Source: Tachypleus tridentatus
Lineage: Eukaryota > Arthropoda > Merostomata > Xiphosura > Limulidae
Assembly (NCBI RefSeq): GCF_004210375.1
Contig: NC_134837.1
Span: 160,125,310-160,189,309 of the forward strand
Direction of reading: 5' to 3'
DNA length: 64,000 bases
A program made the translations under genes and the position numbers. Positions 4,937 through 52,878 of the stretch are shown here, piece by piece. Within the stretch, counting starts at the first letter, position 1. The number at the start of each line of letters is the position of its first letter. The notes beneath the pieces are model-generated. The model did not search any database. It saw nothing but the letters and a program-made list of their open reading frames with translations, and was not told the DNA's origin.

Positions 4937-6498
4937 ATGCCGGCCGGGGAGTCGGAGACCAGGGAAAGCGATGTAGCGTCTGAGACTGAGGGAGCAAGCC
5001 CGTCTGTTTAAGGGACAAAAAGTAAGTCTAGTGACTGTGGCCAAATAGATAATGAGGATGTAAAATTAAAATCTTTAATGTTCGTAGCGGAAAAGGAACT
5101 AAAAGCAAGGTTAGCGCCTATTAAAGAAAATACTATTAGGACTAGAAAAAAAAGAAAGCAAGTAAAAGATATTATGCCTTCAACATCTGAAGATAGTGTA
5201 GCTAAGACTACGGTTAAAGACTATAATATGCCAACAACTAGCAGTTCTAGCAACCCAAACCCCACCCTGGATATTCCACAACAAACAAGTTCAGACAAAG
5301 ACGAAGTTCTTTCTGACGACGAAGGAATCATGCTTGTGCAGATTCGAAGTCAGAAAAAACAAATTAAACAAAGACCAACCACCACAGACACACATACACA
5401 ACTCGCACCAAAATCACCTAAGCACGCAATTATAATCCAAGGAGTTCCTGGTAGTTTCAACCAACCACAATTAGCCAAAGAAATATACAGGTGCAAACCT
5501 AACACAAAGATTACTAATATTAAGCGTCTGCCCAGAGGCGGTGTTCTGGTTCAAGGACAGGAACCCGCTGACTTTAACAGTCTACTAAAAGCTTGGCCTT
5601 CAGACGCGTTCAAAACAGGAAACATTACAATACACCTACCAGGAACTAAACCAACACCGAAATCTTTTGTGATACGAGGTGTACATAATTCAATAGACAT
5701 AGAAGACATTAAGGAAGAGTTAAGTACACAAAACATAAAACATATTTCAGTAGACCGCATAATTTCAAATATTACTAAAAGACCCACAAACCTAATCAAA
5801 GTAGTCACAGACAACAGCCAGGATATTACACAATTCATTAATAATGGTATCACTATGTGGTATCAAAAGTACACAGTAGAACAAACAAAAACACCAGCAG
5901 TGGTTGTCACACAGTGCTACCAATGCCAAAGGTTTGGACATGTAGCAGCAGCATGCCAAGCAAATGCGCGTTGTGTGGGCTGTGGGGGAGAATCACCACA
6001 TTACACAGTGTACAAAACAGAACCCCAAACCCAAATGCTGCAATTGTGGGGAAGAACACACGGCAAATTATAAAGGTTGTCAGAAATATAAATCCATTAA
6101 AACATACTTATACGAAATTAAAAATCCCAACATGAACAAGCCGCCACTACCACGAACCATTAAGGAACCCACACCTACCACTCCAGCACCACAAAGTACA
6201 ACTACACAAATAAACACTTACGCTGCAGTGGTTAAAAATTCATCATCCCGACAGGAAAAAACCATCACCATGTGAAGAGGAAATACCAAAACCACCTCAA
6301 AATACACAAGCAACAACAATTGAAACAACACTGACATCTGCCATAACTTCCACTTTCTCGGAAATAATGGCAGAATATACAAACCCTACAAACACCAACA
6401 GTTTCACAGACATAATAGTTAAAATCATTTTGAAAAACATACACAAATTCCTGCCGCAAATTTTAACCTCCATCATAAACTCTACTAAACATGGATAA
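4937..6498 (+). pseudogene. LINE ORF1 (gag-like RNA-binding protein), outer copy, broken
   Basis: The nucleic-acid-binding ORF1 protein of the LINE. ATG 4937 is preferred because the frame is shared with the inner copy from its equivalent ATG (13027). In this copy a TAA at 5009-5011 cuts it after 24 codons, and a longer open stretch restarts at Met 5078. Order: charged/Ser-rich N-terminus; a tandem RRM-like region starting IIIQGVPGSF and continuing with RLPRGGVLVQ and FVIRGVHNSID (Jockey ORF1/PRE_C2HC type); then CCHC knuckles CYQCQRFGHVAAAC, CVGCG.NHHITQC and CCNCGEEHTANYKGC. Two apparent +1 errors (a G5 run at 5984-5988, an A6 run at 6256-6261) shift the frame. Allowing for both, the ORF ends at TAA 6496-6498, overlapping the ORF2 start. 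Confidence 0.85.
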
Positions 6499-8199
6499 CT
6501 TCACAGTTCTACACATCAATATCCAGGGTGCTCTTGCTTCCAGGAAACATGAGATTGAAGATACAACAAGCTCCATAAAACCTGATGTAATTATAATTAG
6601 TGAAACTCTCTTATATAACTACCATCGATTTAAAATAAACGGCTACTCCATTATTAGACATGACAGGAAGGATAATAGAGATCCAAACAGAGGTCTTTTA
6701 TTATTGCATAAAACTGAACTTATAGTTCAGGAACTTACTATCCATTCCAGTAATGAATCTATAATTATTAATGTAAAAACGCAAAATCATACAGACGTTA
6801 CTGTGGCGGGCATCTACTGCTCGCCTAGAACTGTGTTAGATGTAAATCTATTGAATATATTGTATAATAGCAACTGTAATCTTATTATTATCGGTGACCT
6901 AAACAGTAAACATATAGCATTCAACTGTCGTAGTACAAACGCAAATGGCAATTTACTTTTTCAATTTTTGGATGAATCAAATATGACTTTATTAAACGAT
7001 GCAACACCGACACATATCTCGTACGCACACGGCACCAGTGAAATACTGGACTTATGCCTGTGTTCGTCAAATATGAGTCGCAAATTCGTAAATTTTCATG
7101 TTGGTCACGATATAGATAGTGACCACCTCCCAGATTGGTGTATCTTCAATCTCACCCCCACTTAAATAAAATCATAGTGAGAGACCAACTGAACTACAAA
7201 AAAAGCTAATTGGCCAGTTTTCCAAACTATATTAAATGAAACCTTACCTCCAGAAGTACTACATATTGCCGCGGACGCATCAGATATAGATGCATACTGT
7301 CATATCATCTCTGAGTGTCTAAAACAGGCAGCCAACAGTTCGATACCGAAACAAAAACACTTCACAACAACTCATTCATGGCAACCACATAAAGACATAA
7401 TACACTTAATTAAAAACAGACGTATACTCCGCAGACAGTACATTCAAAATCGCAACCCCACACTTAAAACTCAGATAAACACAATAAGGAATAAAATACG
7501 AAACTTAATCAGAAACAGAAACAAGAAAACTGGGACACCTTCTGTTCCGATCTAAATCACAAAACTGATCCTAAACAATTCTGGACACACTTGAAAAGAT
7601 TTACATACACGGGAACAACAAACACAGTATATCCACCACTGGAACTGGATGGAGAAACAGCATACACTAACACAGAAAAAGCCGAGATATTTAAAAAACA
7701 CCTAGAAAACACGTTCAAAACACATCATGAACCAGACATGAACAGATACTTTTATAATACAGTCATAAACTTTATTGATCAAAACAGAAGCATTTTTACA
7801 CCTAAATTTCCAGTCAACACTATTACACACCAAGAAAAAACAAAAGACTGGAGCACTCATCAACTGATAAAACATATCACTGTAACAGAAGTCGTAACTG
7901 CTATTAACAACACAAAAAACAAAGCCCCTGGAGAAGATGGTATTCAAGCTATCCTCCTAAAACAAGGCACTCAGAGATTATATGAACTCCTAACAGCGTT
8001 ATTTAATCTCTCACTATCAGCTGGATATATCCCCGTTTCTTGGAAGGAAGCAATAGTATTAATGTTCCAGAAAGAAGGAAAGCCAGCGAATAAACCAAAC
8101 AACTACCGCCCGATTAGCTTAACCAGTTGTATTGGCAAAGTATTAGAGAGGATAATTAGTAATCGTCTGTCAGTTTACTTAGAAGAAAATTCAAAATTA
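6491..8199 (+). pseudogene. LINE ORF2, endonuclease and first half of RT, outer copy
   Basis: Starts at ATG 6491, which overlaps the ORF1 stop. The first ~224 codons are an APE-type endonuclease: LHINIQGA, II.SETL, VAGIYCSP, IIGDLNSKH and the C-terminal SDHLP. The frame is lost at a C5 run (7155-7159), then at an A7 run (7198-7204), and a third time around 7520. The RT then runs from the KRFT region near 7591 with KAPGEDGI, SWKEAIVL and NYRPISLTSCIGKVLERII. It stops where the inverted copy entered, right after EENSKL. In the live element ORF2 would cut target DNA and reverse-transcribe the RNA there. Confidence 0.88.
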
Positions 8200-8218
8200 G
8201 TTTGACTGTGTGGGTATT

Positions 8219-8707: not shown

Positions 8708-11476
8708 TTAAATATATGTTAAAAGGAGAGGTATTTAGGACCATTTACATCATGTACGTGATATCTGTCGAGATCACACATTAAGTCATTTTGTGCCAAT
8801 TGTTATTGAAATATTTTAGAGAATTATGCAAGAGTCTTTCAGCTATTGTATCTATGTTTGCATACTTGTGCATGAATGTGGTTGAGGTGCTACGTGGTAC
8901 TTTGTATGCTGAAGTTAGTACAGAATTTTGTATACGTTGAAGTTTCTGTACATGTGTGGGTGCTATGTTAATCCAGGCAGGTGATGCATATTCTATTGTT
9001 GGTCTAATGTACGTTTTGTAGATTTTAAGTATGTTGTCTGGTGATGTTCCTTGATTTTACCTGAAAGACTTCTTGCATAGTTTGCTCTTTTCCAGATTCT
9101 TATCAGTACATTTTAATATGTGGTAGCCACGTTAATTTTGAGTCATAGGTTAGACCTAGAAATTTAGCAGAAGTAGCAGTCAGTAAAAGTGATCCATTCA
9201 TATAGAGTTTTGGTGGATCTTTTTTCAGCTTATTCAGTCTGCTGAATACTATGACTTGGGTTTTTGGAATATTAATTTTGATTCTGTATTTTTGGCAGTA
9301 TTCTTCGATGTTATTTAGGACTGGTTGTAGGTTCGTTGCTGCTATTGACGGAGTGGGGGCACTTTTCCAGACTGCTACATCGTCAGCGAACTGTGATGCA
9401 TAACCTAAATTTAGGTCCGACAGAGGCATATTACTCACGTACATGATAAATAATATAGGCTAACAACCCCTCCCTGCGGGACTCCTGCTTCGGGTGAAAA
9501 GGACCCTGAGTGGGCCCCATTTACATTTACTTTACACATTCTGTTATCCAGGAAGTTGGACAGCCAGCGAATAGTTTCCTGGGGTAATGCCATTTCAAGC
9601 AATCTATGTCTTAAGCCGTTATGCCACACTGTGTCAAATGCTTTCTCAATGTCGAGAAAGCAAGCTACAGTGCATTCTTTTTGTTGAAGCTGTCGGTAAT
9701 TGATTCTGTAAGTCGAATCAGGTGGTCTGTAGTTTGGCGGTTTTTTCGAAATCCGTTTTGAATTTCTGGTAATTTTGAATTTTCTTCTAAGTAAACTGAC
9801 AGACGATTACTAATTATCCTCTCTAATACTTTGCCAATACAACTGGTTAAGCTAATCGGGCGGTAGTTGTTTGGTTTATTCGCTGGCTTTCCTTCTTTCT
9901 GGAACATTAATACTATTGCTTCCTTCCAAGAAACGGGGATATATCCAGCTGATAGTGAGAGATTAAATAACGCTGTTAGGTGTTCATATAATCTCTGAGT
10001 GCCTTGTTTTAGGAGGATAGCTTGAATACCATCTTCTCCAGGAGCTTTGTTTTTTGTGTTTTTAATAGCAGTTACTACTTCTGTAACAGTGATATGTTTT
10101 ACCAGTTGATGAGTGCTCCAGTCTTTTGTTTTTTCTTGGTGTGTAATAGTGTTGACTGGAAATTTAGGTGTAAAAATGCTTCTATTTTGGTCAATAAAGT
10201 TTGTGACTGTATTATAAAAGTATCTGTTCATGTCTGGTTCATGATGTGTTTTGAACGTGTTTTCTAGGTGTTTTTTAAATATCTCGGCTTTTTCTGTGTT
10301 AGTGTATGCTGTTTCTCCATCCAGTTCCAGTGGTGGATATACTGTGTTTGTTGTTCCTGTGTTTGTAAATCTTTTCAAATGTGTCCAGAATTGTTTAAGA
10401 TCAGTTTTATGATTTAGATCGGAACAGAAGGTGTCCCAGTTTTCTTGTTTCTGTTGTCTGATTAAGTTTCGTATTTTATTCCTTATTGTGTTTATCTGAG
10501 TTTTAAGTGTGGGGTTGCGATTTTGAATGTACTGTCTGCGGAGTATACGTCTGTTTTTAATTAAGTGTATTATATCTTTATGTGGTTGCCATGAATGAGT
10601 TGTTGTGAAGTGTTTTTGTTTCGGTATCGAACTGTTGGCTGCATGTTTTAGACACTCAGAGATGATATGACAGTATGCATCTATATCTGATGCGTCCGCG
10701 GCAATATGTAGTACTTCTGGAGGTAAGGTTTCATTTAATATAGTTTGGAAAACTGGCCAATTAGCTTTTTGTAGTTCAGTTGGTCTCTCACTATGATTTT
10801 ATTTAAGTGGGGGTGAGATTGAATATACACCAAACTGGAAGGTGGTCACTATCTATATCGTGACCAACATGAAAATTTACGAATTTGCGACTCATATTTG
10901 ACGAACACAGGCATAGGTCCAGTATTTCACTGGTGCCATGTGCGTACGAGATATGTGTCGGTGTTGCATCGTTTAATAAAGTCATGTTTGATTCGTCCAG
11001 AAATTGATAAAGTAATTTGCCATTTGCGTTTGAGCAACGACAGTTGAATGCTATATGTTTACTGTTTAGGTCGCCGATAATAATAAGATTACAGTTGCTA
11101 TTATACAATATATTCAATAGATTTACATCTAACACGGTACTAGGCGAGCAGTAGATGCCCGCCACAGTAACGTCTGTCTGATTTTGCGTTTTACATTAAT
11201 AACTATAGATTCATTACTGGAAGGGATAGTAAGTTCCTGAACTATAAGTTCAGTCTTATACAATAATAAAAGACCTCTGTTTGGATCTCTATTATCCTTC
11301 CTGTCATGTCTAATAGTAGAGTAGCCGTTTAATTTAAATCTATGGTAGTTATATAGAAGAGTTTCACTAATTATGATTACATCAGGTTTTATGGAGCTTG
11401 TTGTATCTTCAATCTCATGTTTCTTGGAAGCAAGAGCACCCTGGATATTGATGTGTAGAACTGTGAAGTTATCCAT
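8708..11476 (-). pseudogene. LINE ORF2 (endonuclease-RT), inner copy, frameshifted
   Basis: Runs from ATG at 11476 down to a TAA at 8708-8710, roughly 920 codons. The endonuclease (LHINIQGA, SETL, GIYCSP, GDLNSKH, SDHLP) is followed by a linker and RT with KAPGEDGI, NYRPISLTS, FRKNRQTTDHLI, GVPQGGVVS and the catalytic FADD (about 9370). The C-terminal region contains KIYKTYIRPTIEYASPAW. Breaks are single-base and mostly in homopolymers: T4 at 11189-11192, G5 at 10809-10813, T5 at 10766-10770, T5 at 9678-9682, plus a missing base after VVS (9458-9459) and before the C-terminal domain (9111-9114). No domain is missing, so the family was competent recently. Confidence 0.88.
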
Positions 11477-13027
11477 GTCTAGTAGAGTTTATGATGGAGG
11501 TTAAAATTTGCGGCAAGAACTTGTGTATGTTTTTCAATATGATTTTAACAATTATGTCTGTGAGACTGTTGGTGTTTGTGGGATTTGTATATTCTGCCAT
11601 TATTTCCGAGAAAGTGGAAGTTATGGCAGATGTCAGTGTTGTTTCAATTGTTGTTGGTTGTGTATTTTGAGGTGGTTTTGGTATTTCCTCGTCACTTGGT
11701 AATGGTTTTCCTGTCGGGATGATGAATTTTAACCACTGCAGCGTATGTGTTTGTCTGTGTAGTTGTACTTTGTGGTGCTGGAGTGGTAGGTGTGGGTTCC
11801 TTAATTGTTCGTGGTGGTGGCGGCTTGTTCATGTTGGGATTGTTAATTTCGTATAAGTGTGTTTTTATGGATTTATATTTCTGGCAACCTTTATAATTTG
11901 CCGTGTGTTCTTCCCCACAATTGCAGCATTTGGGTTTGGGGTTCTGTTTTGTACAATGTGTAATGTGGTGATTCTCCCACAGCCCACACAACGCGCATTT
12001 GCTTGGCATGCTGCTGCTACATGTCCAAACCTTTGGCATTGGTAGCACTGTGTGACAACCACTGCTGGTGTTTTTGTTTGTTCTACTGTGTACTTATGAT
12101 ACCACATAGTGATACCATTATTAATGAATTGTGTAATATCCTGGCTGTTGTCTGTGACTACTTTGATTAGGTTTGTGGGTCTTTTAGTAATATTTGAAAT
12201 TATACGCTCAACTGAAATGTGTTTTATGTTTTGTGTACTTAACTCTTCCTTAACGTCTTCTATGTCTATTGAATTATGTACACCTCGTATCACAAAAGAT
12301 TTCGGTGTTGGTTTAGTTCCTGGTAGGTGTATTGTAATGCTTCCTGTTTTGAATGCGTCTGCAGGCCAAGCTTTTAGGAGACTGTTTAAGTCAGCGGGTT
12401 CCTGTCCTTGAACCAGAACACCGCCTCTGGGCAGACGCTTAATATTAGTAATCTTTGTATTAGGTTTGCACCTGTATATTTCTTTGGCCAATTGTGGTTG
12501 GTTGTAACTACCAGGAACTCCTTGGATTATAATTGCGTGCTCAGGTGATTTTGGTGCGAGTTGTGTATGTGTGTCTGTGGTGGTTGTTTTTTGTTTAATT
12601 TGTTTTTTTCTGACTTCGAGTCTGCACAAGCGTGAAGCCTTCGTCGTCAGAAAGAACTTCGTCTTTGTCTGAACATGTTTGTTTTTGAATATCCAGGGTG
12701 GGGTTTGGGTTGCTAGTACTGCTAGTTTTTGGCATATTAAAGTCTATAACCGTAGTCTTAGGTACATTGTCTTCACATGCTGAAATCATAATATCTTTTA
12801 CTAGTTTTCGTTTTTTTCGAGTCCTTACAGTATTTTCTTTAACCGGCGTTAACTTAGCTTTTAGTTCTTTTTCGGCTATGAACATTAAAGATTTTAATTT
12901 TAAATTATCATTATCTGTTTGGCCACAGTCACTAGACTTACTTTTTTGTCCCTGAAACAGACGGGCTTGCTCCCTCAGTCTCAGACGCTACATCGCTTTC
13001 CCTGGTCTCCGACTCCCCGACCGGCAT
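11469..13027 (-). pseudogene. LINE ORF1, inner copy, frameshifted
   Basis: Same protein as the outer ORF1. It starts at ATG 13027 (MPVGESETRESDV), where the outer copy has a TAA shortly after its own start; here that codon is TCA. The RRM-like region (IIIQGVPGSYNQPQL, RLPRGGVLVQ) and the CCHC knuckles (CYQCQRFGHVAAAC and two more) are present. Frame breaks: an extra A near 12945, an extra A near 12607, and one base too few at 11976-11978, 11706-11709 and about 11738. Once these are allowed for, the end falls on a TAA (11469-11471) overlapping the ORF2 ATG, exactly as in the outer copy. Confidence 0.85.
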
Positions 13028-13210
13028 GTCGCCTCGTTGTTTAGCGAAGGGGTATTTCCTGTCTTGGGCCAATTCAAATGGTAATAAGGTCTTCTGTCTA
13101 CTGGCGTAAAACTAAAATTCGAAGTGAAAAGTAAAAACACTAACAAAATATGAAGCAAAACACGTAGAAATCTAGAGCCTTTCAGAGGTATGTCTTTCCT
13201 TTACCTATTA

Positions 13211-14276
13211 CCAGAAATTCAAAACGGATTTCGAAAAAACCGCCAAACTACAGACCACCTAATTCGACTTACAGAATCAATTACCGACAGCTTCAACAAA
13301 AAAGAATGCACTGTAGCTTGCTTTCTCGACATTGAGAAAGCATTTGACACAGTGTGGCATAACGGCTTACGACATAGATTGCTTGAAATGGCGTTACTTC
13401 AGGAAACTATTCGCTGGCTGTCCAACTTTCTGGATAACAGAATGTGTAAAGTAAATGTAAATGGGGCCCACTCAGGGTCCTTTTCACCCGAAGCAGGAGT
13501 CCCGCAGGGAGGGGTTGTTAGCCTATATTATTTATCATGTACGTGAGTAATATGCCTCTGTCGGACCTAAATTTAGGTTATGCATCACAGTTCGCTGACG
13601 ATGTAGCAGTCTGGAAAAGTGCCCCCACTCCGTCAATAGCAGCAACGAACCTACAACCAGTCCTAAATAACATCGAAGAATACTGCCAGAAATACAGAAT
13701 CAAAATTAATATTCCAAAAACCCAAGTCATAGTATTCAGCAGACTGAATAAGCTGAAAAAAAATCCACCAAAACTCTATATGAATGGATCACTTTTACTG
13801 ACTGCTACTTCTGCTAAATTTCTAGGTCTAACCTATGACTCAAAATTAACGTGGCTACCACATATTAAAATGTACTGATACGAATCTGGAAAAGAGCAAA
13901 CTATGCAAGAAGTCTTTCAGGTAAAATCCAAGGAACATCACCAGACAACATACTTAAAATCTACAAAACGTACATTAGACCAACAATAGAATATGCATCA
14001 CCTGCCTGGATTAACATAGCACCCACACATGTACAGAAACTTCAACGTATACAAAATTCTGTACTAACTTCAGCATATAAAGTACCACGTAGCACCTCAA
14101 CCACATTCATGCACAAATATGCAAACATAGATACAATAGCTGAAAGACTCTTGCATAATTCTCTAAAATATTTCAATAAGAATTGGCATAAAAATGACTT
14201 AATGTGTGATCTCGACAGATATCACGTACATGATGTAAATGGTTCTAAATACCTCTCCCTTTTAACATATATTTAA
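13211..14276 (+). pseudogene. LINE ORF2, second half of RT and C-terminus, outer copy
   Basis: Continues the frame broken at 8199 with PEIQNGFRKNRQTTDHLIRL. Then come CFLDIEKAFDTVWH (RT motif A with catalytic Asp), GVPQGGVVS (motif B), a one-base loss at 13522-13523, QFADDVAVW (motif C), INIPKTQVIVFSR, LGLTYD, another one-base loss at 13867-13870, and the C-terminal region up to TAA 14274-14276. The A6 run after FNK is intact here, whereas the inner copy has lost one base. Confidence 0.88.
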
Positions 14277-25879: not shown

Positions 25880-27010
25880 TTTTGACCTAACTAGAGACCA
25901 CCGTCCGATCTCCTTCAATATTTCACACAACAAACAGGAAGTACGAACGGGTCTACAATTACACAAGAACTGACTGACGACGTAGCTGTCTGAAGTGTGT
26001 CGTGCAACTCAATAATTGCAAGTAACAGAATTCAAGAATCACTACATTCCATCCTTAATTGGTGTAACGACTAGCGATTCCTCCTAAATCTGCACAAAAC
26101 AACTGCCATCGCATTCAGACGCAACCTAAACAAACATCACATGAACCAGAAAAAGTAAACCTTAAACTAAACAACAGCATAATAAAGCTAAGCCCCTATG
26201 CAAAATGTCTAGGAATAACGTTTGACACACGATTCTCCTGGATATAACATTTCAAAATCATAAACAAATCAGTTAACAAGGGAATCTATCACTTAAAACT
26301 TATTACAGAAGACAATAAAGGATGCACACCTAATACCATCATTAATATCTATAAAACCTACATTTATCCTCTAATCGAAAATGGCTCTCAAGTCACGTAC
26401 AGCATGCAAAAAAGCATCACTAGAACACCACAACTCTAACAAAAGAGAGCCCTCATAGTGGATCTTAAGCTACCCAAACTTACTCCAATTCAACTACAAG
26501 CATGAAGCTTGCAACATTCCCCGACTCAAGGTCCAATTAAAAACATTAGCTCACAACTATTATCAAATAGCGGAAAAAAGAAACTCCTTAGCTGCCAAGC
26601 TACAAACCATGACAAGCGCGCCACACAAAACATATACATGGCCTCCAAGACATCATAAAACAATAACAAACCACACTTCACAAACACACCATCTCAGGTA
26701 CTAATCTTTATTTATGTTTATCTTTATCTCAGCTTTGGGCACAGAACAGGTAGAACATTCTGCGCCTGTTTTGTGAAAGTGGGGTTTCTCAGGTTACTCC
26801 GTCTCTCCTACAGCAGATTCTGAGGCACTTGAATTTACTGATCCCAACCATTCCTTGACCCTGATCACGGGACGTTTAATGGATGTCCGTTGTCTTGTTT
26901 CTTTTCGTTCTTCTGTCAAGTCATGCCACCGACCTACACGGACATTGTCGGTCCAACGGCCCTTATTGCCTTCTCTCGGTCTTCTTGTTCCAACTAGACT
27001 ACTTTATATG
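25880..27010 (+). mobile_element. LINE relic: RT C-terminal part and 3' UTR
   Basis: Plus-strand remains of a LINE RT: a short HRPISF-like piece near 25900, then TDDVAV (eroded .ADD motif) at ~25973. Next are LHSILNWC, LHKTTAIAFRRNLNK (the IN..KT....F. region) at ~26090-26130, YAKCLGI, IYKTYIYPLIENGS (~26350-26390) and a C-terminal stretch to ~26690. Many stops and an internal deletion between the first two pieces. The 3' UTR (~26700-27010) contains GTGGGGTTTCTC and GTTACTCC at 26779-26800, homologous to blocks in the half-LINEs to its right. The half-LINE at 27024-30507 is inserted in or at the end of this UTR. Confidence 0.65.
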
Positions 27011-27733
27011 CACTTTTTTGAAATGAAATGCTTGATAGGTATTTAGGTTAATTTATAATTTCGTTCCCCAAAGGTGAACGAAAAATAGCCAGGGGCGGTC
27101 AGAAACTATTGTTTCTCTTCACCCCACACGAGGCAAGAATAAATTAGTCAACTGATCACGAAGATAATTAAGTGAATTGGAGTAGCATGTTGGTTGTTAA
27201 TCAAGAGCGATGGTCACTAATGACCTTGAAGTTGACAGTTTTATGTATCTAACTGAGGAGCGTCGGGAAACAGCTGAGAAGTGGACCGACGAGCCTGAGA
27301 GAAAACGAAGAACGAAAGGAAAAGGTTCAACACAACATTCACAAGCGTCTGAAGAATTACGTGGTGTAAATATTGTCGAAGTGAAGGGAGCAGAGAGATG
27401 CAAACACAGTACGCCGACATAATGAGGACTCATGACTTGGATTAACTAGACTTTAAACACTTAAAATTTAGGTACTAAAGAACGGACCACTTTTCAGGGA
27501 TGGGATCTATAGATCCTATGAAACGGAACTTTTGCTGTGGGGAAAACGGGAGTACCCCGAGAAAACCCACTTGCGCGACCAGGGCGCCGAATATAGGTCC
27601 TGACCGTGTCTGGAAGAAGAGCTGTAAGGAAAGAAAAATACAAGGATTAATTACAAGGAACATACAGTAGCACTTACAATAACAAAGCAAATGACAATAA
27701 TAAACAAAGGTTGCAACTAGGATACGTTTAAAA

Positions 27734-28061
27734 CTAAGAAGACGAATGTTCTGAAGGACATGGCGGATCATCTGTGATGCATAGGTCTGATTTTAGCTTG
27801 GACGAAGGAGGATAGATGAGGAAATTCTTGTTTCTAGGCAGAATGTTTCTAATCTGGAGTTCTTTCTGTGCTAACTTGCTGGATGCTCTCGTGAATCGCA
27901 TGTCTCCAGGATACTGGGTTTCTTGATTAATCATGGCTTTAAGAAACAGCGTCTGCTATTTGGACATTATCGGTCGAAGCATAGGTTTCACAAGTTTTAG
28001 TCTCTTCAGTGGTGGTTTGGGTGCTCTGGCATATTTTGTTACCGAAATCTGTTTGGAAACA
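27734..28061 (-). pseudogene. Half-LINE ORF1, C-terminal part, outer copy
   Basis: Continues the frame cut at 29833: QTDFGNK, CQSTQTTTEETKTCE, STDNVQIADAVS. A stop and small deletion follow near 27940, then the final stretch NQETQYPGDMRF...PSSKLKSDL, ending at the stop 27734-27736. The TQT motifs match the inner copy. Confidence 0.75.
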
Positions 28062-29832
28062 GACAGACAGACAGACTTGGTAGGTATTTAGGCTAAATTA
28101 TTCTTTCGTTCTCCAAAAGTCGAACGAAAAATAACCAGGGGCGGTCAGAAACTATTGTTTCTCTTCACCCCACACAAGGCAAGAATAAATTAGTTAATTG
28201 ATTATGGAGTAAGTTATATGGACAGGAGTGGCATGTTAGTTATTCATCTAACGTGATGGTCACGAATGACCTAGAAGTTGATAGTTTGTTGAATTTAATT
28301 GAGGGGCGACGGGAAAAGCTGAGAAGAGTTCCTGCCGACCGGAGAGACAACGAAGAAAGATGAGGAAGGTTCAGCACAACACCCACAAGCGTCCGAGGAG
28401 TTATGATGTGAGAATATAGTTGACATGGAGAGAGCCGAGAGATGCAAACACGGTACCCGACATGATTAGGTCTCGTGACTTGAATGTTTTAGCCTTTAAA
28501 CATTTAGAATTTTGGATATTTAAAATTTAGATACTAATTTAAAATTTAGATACCAAAGTGACGTACCTCTTTTCAGGGCTGGGATCTATAGATCCTACGA
28601 TACGGAACTTTTGCTGTGGGGGGAAACGGGAGTGCCCCGAGAAAACCCACTTTTACGACCAGGGCGCCGAATATAGGCCGTGGTCGTGCCCGGAAGAGGA
28701 GCTGTAAGGAAAGAAATAACACAGATTAATAACAAGCAACATACGGTAACACTTAGAATAATAAAGCAAATTGTAATAATAAAACATAGAGGTAGTAACT
28801 AGGATGTGTTTCGATTCGAACTATAATAAAGACTGTTTTGAAGGATTTGGCGGATCTTCTGTGACGCATGGGTTGGATATTTGGTTGAACGGGGAGACAT
28901 GATGAAATTTCCTCTAATAAGCTGGAGATTATTCAGTATAATCTTTGTGGATGCTTTCGTGGTGCGTAGATCTTCAGGATACTGGGTATTTTGATTAATC
29001 GTGTCTGTCTTAGTTTGAGAAACCGCGTCTGCTGTTTGGATATTATCAGTCGAGGTGGAGGATTCACAAGTTTTTGATCCTTCGTTGATGGTTTGTGTGC
29101 CCTGGGATATTTTGTTTTCAAAATCTGTTTGGGTAAACTCTTCTGATGTTTGGTTTTCAGTTAGCGGGGTGGCTGTGGGCATATTGGATATTCCGCTAGG
29201 CTGTGGTACAGGTGTAGGTTGCTTAGGAGTTTTAGGTTTAGTTGGACGGCGTTGGGGGCGTTCGGCACTATTATGGAAAATATGGTAGTAGCAGCCATTC
29301 CGTAGAATGGTATCGGCGATGGGTTTACTGGTTGTTACAATCTTCATGAAGTTAGTGGCTTGACGGGAGGATTTTGAATAAATCCGGTGAACAGCGTAAA
29401 TCACTGATTGGGTCTGGTTTTCAACAGCGCATTTAATTTCATACGGTTGAATGGAGTGGTGCACTCCTTTAAGAAAACTGTGAATAGGCTAGTAGGGCTT
29501 TTCGTGGGAGCACAACTAATTTTCATCGGGGTATTCCATGGCTTACAGAGATAGGACAAATCTTCAGGCGTAGACGGCTGGAGAAGGATTCCCCCTCGGC
29601 GTAGAATTCGTATTCTTGACGGGTCAATGGAAGCGCCGGGCTTAGCCTGCGCAATGAATGTGGCGATTTGAAGAGGCGAAAGGTGAGGCGGTAAGCCGTC
29701 GACGATTACCGGCGGGACAGTTGGCGGGATCGGCACAGCAGGACCAGGTAATGACAACGTCATTATGGTATAGCAGGAGCAATGTAGAAACACGTCTGAC
29801 TAGCATGGAGTCAAAGCTGGGCTCGTAAGGTG
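28062..29832 (-). mobile_element. Half-LINE, inner copy, complete
   Basis: A 1771-bp copy of the same family in the same orientation, inserted in ORF1 of the outer copy. 13-bp TSD with one mismatch: CTGTTTGGAAACA 28049-28061 / CTGTTTGGGAACA 29833-29845. The 5' leader begins CACCTTACGAGCC (29832 downwards). The 3' end is a (GTCT)n simple-repeat tail (28062-28076) after CCTACCAA. The 3' UTR holds a 14-bp perfect palindrome GGATCTATAGATCC (28582-28595), the GTGGGTTTTCTC block (~28610-28650) and a hairpin with TTTCGTTC/GAACGAAA arms at 28104-28129. Confidence 0.85.
28799..29763 (-). pseudogene. Half-LINE ORF1, inner copy, one frameshift
   Basis: ATG at 29763, stop at 28799-28801; ~321 codons once a single missing base near 29475 is allowed for. 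Order: Pro-rich N-terminus (SLPGPAVPIPPTVPPVIVDG); an RRM-like region (ATFIAQAKPGASIDPSRIRILRRGGILLQ) parallel to RLPRGGVLVQ of the Jockey-like ORF1; a second RRM-like part (LFTVFLKGVHHSIQPYEIK ... RIYSKSS.QATNFMKIVT); a basic linker (ERPQRRPTKPK); then a Ser/Thr/Gln-rich tail with TQT twice (EEFTQTDFE, SQGTQTIN). No CCHC knuckles. Probably an RNA-binding chaperone acting in retrotransposition (inference from the homologous region). Confidence 0.75.
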
Positions 29833-30460
29833 CTGTTTGGGAACACTTATCGGTTGATTGATTTATAGCTTGCTGAGGGTCGATGGGCGGAGTGGATATT
29901 CCGTTAGGTTGCAAGACAGGTTCAGGTTGCTTAGGTGTACTTGGTTTGGTTGGGTGGCGTCGGGGGCGTTCGGCACTAAAATGAAAGATATGATAATAGC
30001 AGCCATTCCGTAGAACGGTATCGGCAATATGTTTACCGGGTGTTACAATTTTCATGAATTTGGTAGCTTGTTGGGAGGATTTCGAGTAAATCCTGTGCAC
30101 GGCGTATATAACTGACTTAGTTTGGTTTTCAACGGCGCATTTGATTTCACTTGGTTGAATGAAGTGCTGTACTCCTCTCAGGAAAACAGTGAACAGGTTA
30201 GTAGGTCTCTTGGTGGGTGCACATCTGATTTTAATAGGGGTATTCCATGGCTCACAAAAGTAGGATAAGTTTTCAGGCGTAGACGGCTGGAGGAGAATTC
30301 CCCCTCCGCGTAGAATTCGCGTTCTGGAAGGGTCTAAGGAGGCGCCAGGCTTAGCCTGCGCAATAAACGTGGCAATTTGAAGAGGCGATAGGCCGTCGAC
30401 GATTACCGGCGGGACCGTTGGCGGGATCGGCACAGCAGGACCAGGTAATGAGAACGTCAT
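29833..30460 (-). pseudogene. Half-LINE ORF1, N-terminal part, outer copy
   Basis: ATG at 30460. The same protein as the inner copy with a small deletion after VDGL. It runs open through the RRM-like region to DKCSQT, where the inner copy inserted. The frame joins correctly to QTDFGNK of the 27.7-28.06 kb part when the TSD is counted once. Reading on across the junction gives a spurious C-terminus from the inner copy's leader. Confidence 0.78.
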
Positions 30461-30520
30461 TCTTGTATAGCAGGAGGAAAAAAAAAAAAAAAAAAACACG
30501 TCTGACTCACTTTTTTGAAA

Positions 30521-51950: not shown

Positions 51951-52878
51951 CTTCTTCTTCATGTGTCAAATCTGCGGCAGACATCGACGACCATGACATG
52001 CCAGACTTCTCTGCTGTCAAGCTTCCTTATCAACTCGATGTTGCTCATTGAGTTCTTGGTAACATAGTTATTGAGGTTGTCGATATATTTAGTTCTTTGA
52101 CACCCTCTGCTTTTCCTCCCTTCTATTTTTCCACATAGCATCTGTTTCTCTATCCCATTCTTCCTACAGATGTGTCCTAGAAATTTCATTTGTCTCTTTC
52201 TTATAGTTTTCCTGCCAGTTCCATGACTTCCACATTTGTTTTTCTTTCAGTCCATGATATTTTTAGCATCCTTCTAAGGAACCACATTTCAGCAGCTTCT
52301 AATCTCTTCTCTGTATCTTTGTTCAGTGTTCAGCTCTCACAGCCATATAAGAGAACAGACCATACATATGATTTCAAGGTGTTAATTTTAGTGACATTTG
52401 TTATGTTCCTGTTTGTGAATATGGACTTCATTTTATTGAAAGTATCCTTGGACATTGCAATTCTTTTCTTTATTTCTGTGTCACTCTTTGCATTTGATGT
52501 TATAGTATATCCAAGATATTTGAAGCTTTCGACTTGTTTTATTCTCACGTCCTTGCCGGTTATGCTACATGTGGGTGTAATTGATTGTTTTGAGATAACC
52601 ATGCACTCTGTTTTCTTTGCATTTAACTGTAAGCCTTTTTCTTCACTCTCGTCTACTGTTGTTGTGAGGAGAGTCTGTAGATTTCGTTTGGAGTCCGCAA
52701 TGAGGACTGTGTCATCAGCGTAGCGCAAGTTGTTGATTTGCATCCGCCTACTTTGACTCCCTGATGTTCATTGATGTTTCGTAGGATTATTTCGCTGTAT
52801 AAGTTAAAAAGATCTGGTGAAAATACACATCCCTGCCTCACCCCTCTTTCAATTGATCTATATTCACTCAATTCATTC
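51951..52878 (-). mobile_element. RTE-clade LINE, 5'-truncated, decayed RT
   Basis: Exact 10-bp TSD AGGGTACCTT at 51941-51950 and 52879-52888. Minus strand: RT motif B region [21 protein letters not shown] (~52780-52840), one-base frame break, then [14 protein letters not shown] (catalytic YADD, ~52690-52735). These are followed by GLQLNAKKTECMVISK, FKYLGYTITSN, and the C-terminal FLGHICRKNG...GRKSRGCQRTKY region after another break. The stop codon is followed almost at once by (GAA)n, the very short 3' UTR and trinucleotide tail typical of RTE elements. Confidence 0.88.

Follow-up and report, generated by a model that had tools for sequence, protein, structure and literature searches.

Within a stretch of 64,000 nucleotides from the genome of the horseshoe crab Tachypleus tridentatus (hereafter the window; contig NC_134837.1, positions 160,125,310 to 160,189,309), two nested copies of a retrotransposon lie at 27024-30507, each composed of a leader, a first open reading frame (ORF1) and a 3' untranslated region (UTR), with no reverse transcriptase (RT) or endonuclease (EN). 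We refer to this ORF1-only long interspersed nuclear element (LINE) as the half-LINE. An initial annotation had placed both copies and had given each a 13-bp target-site duplication (TSD); re-deriving these from the letters returned the same placement, on the minus strand, and the same duplications, with 13 of 13 positions matching for the outer copy and 12 of 13 for the inner one. Neither copy is intact, the inner ORF1 lying in two frames and the outer ORF1 being broken by the inner copy. The 5' end of the outer copy (30507) lacks ~20 bp of the leader common to other copies (31 bp of the leader of the inner copy), and the inner leader contains an AGACGTG that resembles a downstream promoter element.

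Using the outer ORF1 as a protein query against the species' own 2.17-Gb genome, we scored the best 150 of 2569 first-look candidates. By identity, 97 of these rows form a group A and the other 53 (~54-58%) a group B. The horseshoe-crab origin of this genome is borne out by its 19 matches to Coagulin (PF02035), a family not known outside horseshoe crabs. Half-LINE copies in this set are interspersed over many contigs, internal and TSD-flanked, and they end in short repeats, for example TCTG or TTCC, instead of poly(A). At 26 of the 29 best loci outside the window, the match to the inner copy, broken into one to three pieces, begins no later than query position 79 and ends no earlier than position 1702, reproducing the same collinear layout of leader, ORF1 and 3' UTR, so that this layout is not a matter of chance; the 29 loci are not all independent, as several have common flanks and 57 5' flanks reduce to 34 distinct ones. 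TSDs around whole units were also read by eye at loci L007, L014, L018, L020, L026, L029 and L035. The search suggested by the initial annotation thus yields many copies of ~1.7-1.8 kb with TSDs and without RT. Linkage to RT was followed in a sample of 52 ORF1 copies from 42 loci, the window included and some loci overlapping or duplicates. A conserved 3' block comes directly after ORF1 in 36 of these copies, at a spacing of 554-779 bp, and in the other 16 no block was called, owing to the end of the locus or to divergence, nor does any RT or EN match occur there on that strand. An ORF2 between ORF1 and the 3' UTR, which most copies would carry if the window copies were mere deletion products, was looked for, and none of the 52 has an RT or EN match in the interval from ORF1 to the 3' block. 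The half-LINE is confirmed as a real ORF1-only non-long-terminal-repeat retrotransposon family. Families of this kind are known, and this one has its own, old ORF1 lineage.

Table 1 Half-LINE copies and other LINE features of the window
Feature	Position	Strand	Basis or remark
Outer half-LINE copy, split by inner copy	27024..30507	-	1700 bp by subtraction of insert
Outer TSD, element's 5' side, CACTTTTTTGAAA	30508..30520	.	13/13 match
Outer TSD, element's 3' side, CACTTTTTTGAAA	27011..27023	.	13/13 match
Inner half-LINE copy, 1771 bp, within outer ORF1, same orientation	28062..29832	-	Sequence alignment
Inner TSD, element's 5' side (CTGTTTGGAAACA / CTGTTTGGGAACA pair)	29833..29845	.	12/13 match
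Inner TSD, element's 3' side (CTGTTTGGAAACA / CTGTTTGGGAACA pair)	28049..28061	.	12/13 match
Outer ORF1, ATG (start at 30460) to inner insertion, two predicted RRM-type folds by homology to L014	29846..30460	-	Fold modelled on L014 ORF1
Inner ORF1 (start at 29763), across two frames	28799..29763	-	ORF list, alignment
Inner 5' leader (CCCAGCTTTGACTCC...AGTCAGACGTG)	29764..29832	-	Matches 5' end common to genomic copies
Inner copy, conserved block: polypyrimidine-CAG, hairpin, GGTTTTCTCGGGG, head of common 3' UTR	28569..28719	-	Limits approximate
Outer copy, same conserved block	27482..27636	-	Limits approximate
Inner 3' UTR, part common to autonomous LINE (inner query positions 1187-1768)	28075..28656	-	Alignment
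Outer 3' UTR, part homologous to that region	27031..27576	-	Alignment
RT of LINE used as neutral control	52330-52767	-	150 scored matches, 0 in histone clusters
LINE copies with CCHC-type ORF1 and EN/RT frames	5012-8205 (+), 9665-12987 (-), 13154-14276 (+)

The half-LINE ORF1 is 329-330 codons long in L014, L017, L020 and L023, and 71 of 170 leading positions are invariant among 11 aligned ORF1s from A, B and L035. The codon comparison indicates that this frame is under purifying selection: across 45 pairs from 10 copies picked for long open frames, the ratio of nonsynonymous to synonymous divergence (dN/dS, Nei-Gojobori) is 0.12-0.28 in 28 of the 31 pairs with measurable dS, larger dS values being rough, and 0.30, 0.38 and 0.54 in the remaining three, all of young copies, while 14 of the 45 pairs, including most A-B pairs, are saturated at dS. 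As modelled by AlphaFold2 on the L014 ORF1, the protein is predicted to form two tandem RRM-like folds, seen as two beta-alpha-beta units with a mean predicted local distance difference test (pLDDT) score of 54.6, usable only at residues ~11-160. Among PDB entries, tandem-RRM proteins match best (HuD, 6.7e-8; HuR, 1.6e-7; UP1, 2.4e-7); as their TM-scores are low (0.19-0.30 on the query) and the usable region is limited, the model does not settle how the two domains are arranged relative to each other. Pfam returned no family in the three window frames and elsewhere only matches far under the cut-offs, and the half-LINE ORF1 contains no CCHC knuckles. Purifying selection would also be expected if ORF1 were a domesticated host gene and the copies its processed pseudogenes; this we consider barely credible, given that the copies are TSD-bounded units, that their non-coding 3' tails match those of a LINE and that near-identical recent copies occur at different sites.

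A search with the 3' end (40 scored of 523 candidates, 10 loci cut out) returned six half-LINEs, two truncated elements and two loci, L039 and L040, at which an RT frame stands directly before the same 3' UTR; the L039 frame matches PF00078 at 2.3e-26. We call this autonomous lineage RT-A. A search with the RT protein counts 58 of its copies before families near 50% identity begin; in one of them, at C14:8520634, 934 codons are open in a single frame. Over 590 bp, the RT-A 3' UTR (read in L123) is 98.8% identical to those of half-LINEs L017 and L023, 98.3% to that of L020 and 96.8% to that of L029, other pairs being at 71-80% identity, and L017, L020 and L023, which lie at different sites, are mutually 99.5-99.8% identical. 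The half-LINE query finds nothing beyond the 3' UTR in the C14:8520634 copy within stretches L122 and L123, the middle lying outside the scan. By eye, the RT-A ORF1 has CCHC knuckles in L035 and L122 (Pfam zf-CCHC at 0.0062 in L035, under the cut-off). Going by the common 3' UTR, RT-A is likely the helper of the half-LINE.

The common 3' UTR also bears on whether the copies are internal-deletion accidents of a full LINE, each of which lost its ORF2 separately and was amplified by chance, as it is a tail that a full LINE does carry. Such accidents fit poorly, however, with the absence of RT from all 52 copies and the similar position of the block in 36 of them, with the CCHC-type ORF1 of the helper, and with the low identity, 23%, between the half-LINE ORF1 and that of the window LINE at 5012-6073, in which CCHC-type knuckles are seen by eye. 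Moreover, A, B and L035 are near synonymous saturation, yet all copies examined are without RT. We hold this origin to be very improbable. Nor did the half-LINE arise from RT-A by a simple deletion, its ORF1 being of a separate lineage.

At the head of the common 3' UTR lies a hairpin that, in 17 picked segments, is paired in 96.8% of cells, with 35 cells changed on both sides. Its covariation score is 0.576 versus 0.176 +/- 0.030 in shuffled alignments, a value reached by none of 500 shuffles, but two of five measures are not clearly above the shuffles (both-side-changed pairs, 145/500; further pair types, 50/500). A polypyrimidine-YAG tract resembling a 3' splice site precedes the hairpin in 23 of 28 distinct 3' blocks of the loci and the window as counted by pattern, although one of these 23, that of L022, has no pyrimidine tract.

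Beyond the view of the initial annotation, a number of half-LINEs sit at the starts of genes transcribed by RNA polymerase II (Pol II). In sense orientation, they lie 5' of histone H3 (L020), of H2A (L023, L031) and of H2B (L029, L032, L043, L117). At H2B, four element types, namely a group A half-LINE (L029), a group B half-LINE (L032), a copy with a third type of tail (L117) and an RT-A LINE (L123), end at one position within a base or two, directly before CCAAGTTTATTTTTCAACATG. The order in L122 is a divergent H2A gene, CTATTGG, AATTTAAACG, GGTCCAAGTTTA, the LINE (5'-truncated in ORF1) and GGTCCAAGTTTA again. One position of a hAT-like repeated gene has likewise been hit by L004, L007, L011, L018 and L041 and by LINE L040, with matching TSDs of 10-13 bp such as TCCTACTTCCATT (sites read on one or both flanks); the gene next to the element in L041 encodes DUF4371 (1.5e-17), which we take to be a hAT-type domain. 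A U2 small nuclear RNA (snRNA) gene (Rfam, 136.5 bits) follows the tail of another copy within a few bases, near a U2 array (L115), and L003, L009, L010 and L110 have in common the CCAAT-TATA promoter of a further repeat. Orientation is sense in all loci read (seven histone, six hAT-like, one U2), and the genes recognised beside copies are all Pol II genes (histones, U2, hAT-like), tRNA genes not having been scanned for. The likely helper and the half-LINE occupy the same H2B and hAT-like positions at the few LINE junctions read (L040, L123). Pol II gene-start insertion is well supported at histone H2B and at the hAT-like gene, and it is indicated at H2A, H3 and U2.

Reuse of the same H2B and hAT-like sites could also come from a sequence-specific endonuclease in the style of R1/R2 or TRAS/SART, with promoters as such playing no part, and head-to-tail stacking is usual for elements of that sort. 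R1/R2, TRAS/SART and U2-targeting LINEs insert inside rRNA, telomeric repeat or snRNA by sequence recognition; like them, the half-LINE is found at multicopy genes or arrays, but it sits at the upstream edge of genes whose sequences differ. Its TSDs also differ by target (GCCCAAGTTTATT-type, GATCATTCTTAG, TCCTACTTCCATT, CACACGGTGACT, GCCTCATGAGACG), with no common motif among them by eye (no motif search was made), and we judge such targeting improbable.

To delimit histone clusters, we scored 150 of 948 histone candidates, H3 for the most part, joined hits lying within 450 kb, kept chains of at least three and extended these by 30 kb; the clusters total 5.8 Mb, or 0.27% of the genome. Among the best-scored matches, 11 of 97 copies of group A, 21 of 53 of group B and 11 of 58 of RT-A fall in these clusters, versus none (by eye) of the best 150 matches of a control LINE (Fisher P = 2e-5, 2e-14 and 4e-7, respectively). 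The control is the window LINE at 52330, presumably RTE/L2-like. It was chosen because the window LINE at 5012, 9665 and 13154, which we take to be Jockey-like, proved unsuitable as a neutral control: it is itself found in histone units, where several copies keep (by eye) a fixed distance of ~1.75 kb from H3, upstream of it and in the same orientation. TATA boxes were also scored, with a matrix threshold of at least 75% of the maximum, in the -75..-15 stretch of 69 distinct 5' flanks, of which 8 had a match versus 5 of 207 control windows (P = 0.005); laxer settings gave 10 versus 10 (P = 0.011) and 18 versus 24 (P = 0.005). By the patterns used, 23 of the 69 copies stand directly behind another element's 3' tail or leader repeat, as is expected when a restored site is hit again.

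These counts can be read differently, with the passenger family accepted and promoter targeting denied: histone arrays would then be a haven multiplied by unit duplication, and the TATA boxes would be there by chance. The constant spacings do show amplification, the TATA signal is modest, and several copies lie in the ORFs of other elements or in unrecognised DNA. A haven does not readily account, however, for four element types at one H2B position, for repeated insertions with matching TSDs at one hAT-like position, for sense orientation at every histone, hAT-like and U2 locus read, or for the 0 of 150 of the neutral LINE, and we regard it as unlikely, if a serious contender. The reading that we consider likely is instead that of a long-lived ORF1-only family, mobilised in trans by RT-A and often landing in sense orientation at Pol II gene starts.

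Several observations weigh against the latter reading. The Jockey-like LINE has 14 of its best 150 RT matches in histone clusters (Fisher P = 9e-5 against the control), so that the enrichment is not exclusive to RT-A. Because whole units have been amplified, the histone counts run too high, several B copies sharing one offset of ~2.0 kb from H3. A good TATA box is missing at most of the 69 sites, and since no more than a minority carry one, TATA boxes were dismissed as a mark of every site. L017 and L022 lie inside the endonuclease frame (ORF2) of another LINE, and so does L084/L085 (downstream read as L119, C4:48000350-48001250) inside a LINE ORF2, with TSD TTGGCACAACCC, the element of L119 being a half-LINE with a third (C-type) tail. 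For L021, L027 and L028 the target was the 3' UTR of a different half-LINE, and for the inner copy of the window it was the ORF1 of the outer copy, not a gene start. The eight downstream stretches examined contain two recognised genes (H2B, U2), one LINE ORF2, four in which nothing was recognised and, in L114, an unnamed ORF behind TATTTAA. The start sites at the landing positions are those suggested by promoter motifs, and no helper was found for subfamily B or for the C-type tails; the LINE around L084/L085 was considered as one and dropped, the copies being inside the ORF2 of that other LINE. In the window, CTATAAATC stands 47 bp upstream of the leader of the inner copy, where it may be a chance occurrence, and the 5' flank of the outer copy has no evident promoter motif. 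Since copies occur inside the ORFs of other LINEs and most sites are without a good TATA box, a general targeting of gene starts is shown only in part.

As a plausible mechanism, a half-LINE RNA carrying the selected, RRM-type ORF1 and a 3' UTR matching that of RT-A would be recognised at its 3' end by the RT-A enzymes and inserted by target-primed reverse transcription, leaving TSDs of 10-13 bp. The site would be chosen together with a promoter complex, recognised as such rather than by its sequence, giving sense insertions at the Pol II starts of histone H2A/H2B/H3, U2 snRNA, hAT-like and other TATA genes. Since the duplication would restore the target site, later insertions could stack head to tail, and the position at a gene start probably supplies a host promoter from which the half-LINE would be transcribed for the next round.

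Host promoter sequence may indeed travel with the element. In L107, the TSD TTGGGTTTGTTCC is followed by 53 bp and then by the normal leader, and the last 27 of these 53 bp are CTGAATTTTGCCCAAGTTTATTTTTTT, which is as in the H2B promoter and start except for a run of T. The position of the TSD places this H2B start sequence inside the element, and L107 is best read as a transcript that would have begun in an H2B promoter and been reinserted elsewhere. The H2B start sequence occurs outside histone clusters in L087, L091 and L107, and in the first two it is presumably carried inside the element as well. We had taken GCCCAAGTTTA in L035 for the LINE's own 5' UTR, an interpretation that was dropped, as L092 and L122 have GCCCAAGTTTA in the H2B promoter. 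We put forward tentatively, at rather less than even confidence, the wider proposal that a LINE group and its ORF1-only passengers insert at Pol II transcription start sites via the promoter complex and capture host promoters (histone, U2), the RRM-type ORF1 of the passenger, long selected without an RT, serving in trans as a targeting or RNA-carrying partner.

ORF1-only LINEs are already known as a kind from HAL1, TRE5-A.2 and HeT-A. HAL1 (half-L1) of mammals, which the initial annotation named as precedent, fits as a kind, but TRE5-A.2 of Dictyostelium is closer, being ORF2-less, apparently mobilised in trans and promoter-targeted. TRE5-A.2 is missing the whole of ORF2 and keeps ORF1, is apparently mobilised in trans by the autonomous TRE5-A, integrates like its helper and stacks in tandem, with insertion set by a transcription complex; in vitro, the ORF1 protein of TRE5-A interacts with TBP, and it is reported to be what detects the target (PMC5391098). 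The half-LINE is likewise ORF2-less, at its putative helper's sites and stacked. TRE5-A.2 differs in lying ~47 bp upstream of tRNA genes, which are transcribed by Pol III, whereas the half-LINE lies at Pol II gene starts, and in being derived from its helper, whereas the half-LINE ORF1 and the CCHC-type ORF1 of the likely helper belong to different lineages. HAL1 is an ORF1-only LINE derivative with TSDs that depends on the RT and EN of a LINE, ends in poly(A) and has its ORF1 from L1 (PMC5322556, citing Bao and Jurka 2010), unlike the short-repeat tails and predicted tandem RRM-type ORF1 described here. HeT-A of Drosophila has no RT of its own, encodes a gag-type protein, forms head-to-tail arrays and uses a relative's RT (PMC5537684); it is added to chromosome ends without a nick, whereas the half-LINE is internal, with TSDs. 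The half-LINE differs from a short interspersed nuclear element in being coding, with an ORF1 under apparent purifying selection. No gene-start insertion is known to us for HAL1. A literature search found no LINEs targeted to histone genes or Pol II starts, most subscription journals lying outside it, and, mostly at title or abstract level, no ORF1-only LINE in horseshoe crabs.

ORF1-only derivatives pose the question of why an element would keep ORF1 yet drop the enzyme. With a selected ORF1, a likely helper whose 3' end is near-identical, recent copies and a common landing site in one genome, one can test whether ORF1 acts in trans, be it in targeting or in RNA handling. If insertion at Pol II starts holds true, it would parallel, for Pol II, what TRE5-A does at Pol III genes, would explain how such elements get transcribed, and would bear on the evolution of histone and snRNA arrays under element load.

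The histone-rich region C11:0.65-4.41 Mb, with several frame-broken histone copies, accounts by eye for 21 of the 58 counted RT-A matches and looks like a decaying histone array colonised by RT-A LINEs. Rfam gave nothing credible on the window element, its two matches (E = 0.17 and 0.39) being under the family cut-offs. A relative of the conserved 3' block lies at 26757-26815 (+) of the window, with 74% identity over 61 bp and a polypyrimidine-CAG tract before it, and is probably the tail of another LINE type. In L024 and L025, the 5' leader forms a series of ~52-bp tandem units ahead of the full element, comparable to the promoter monomers of rodent L1.

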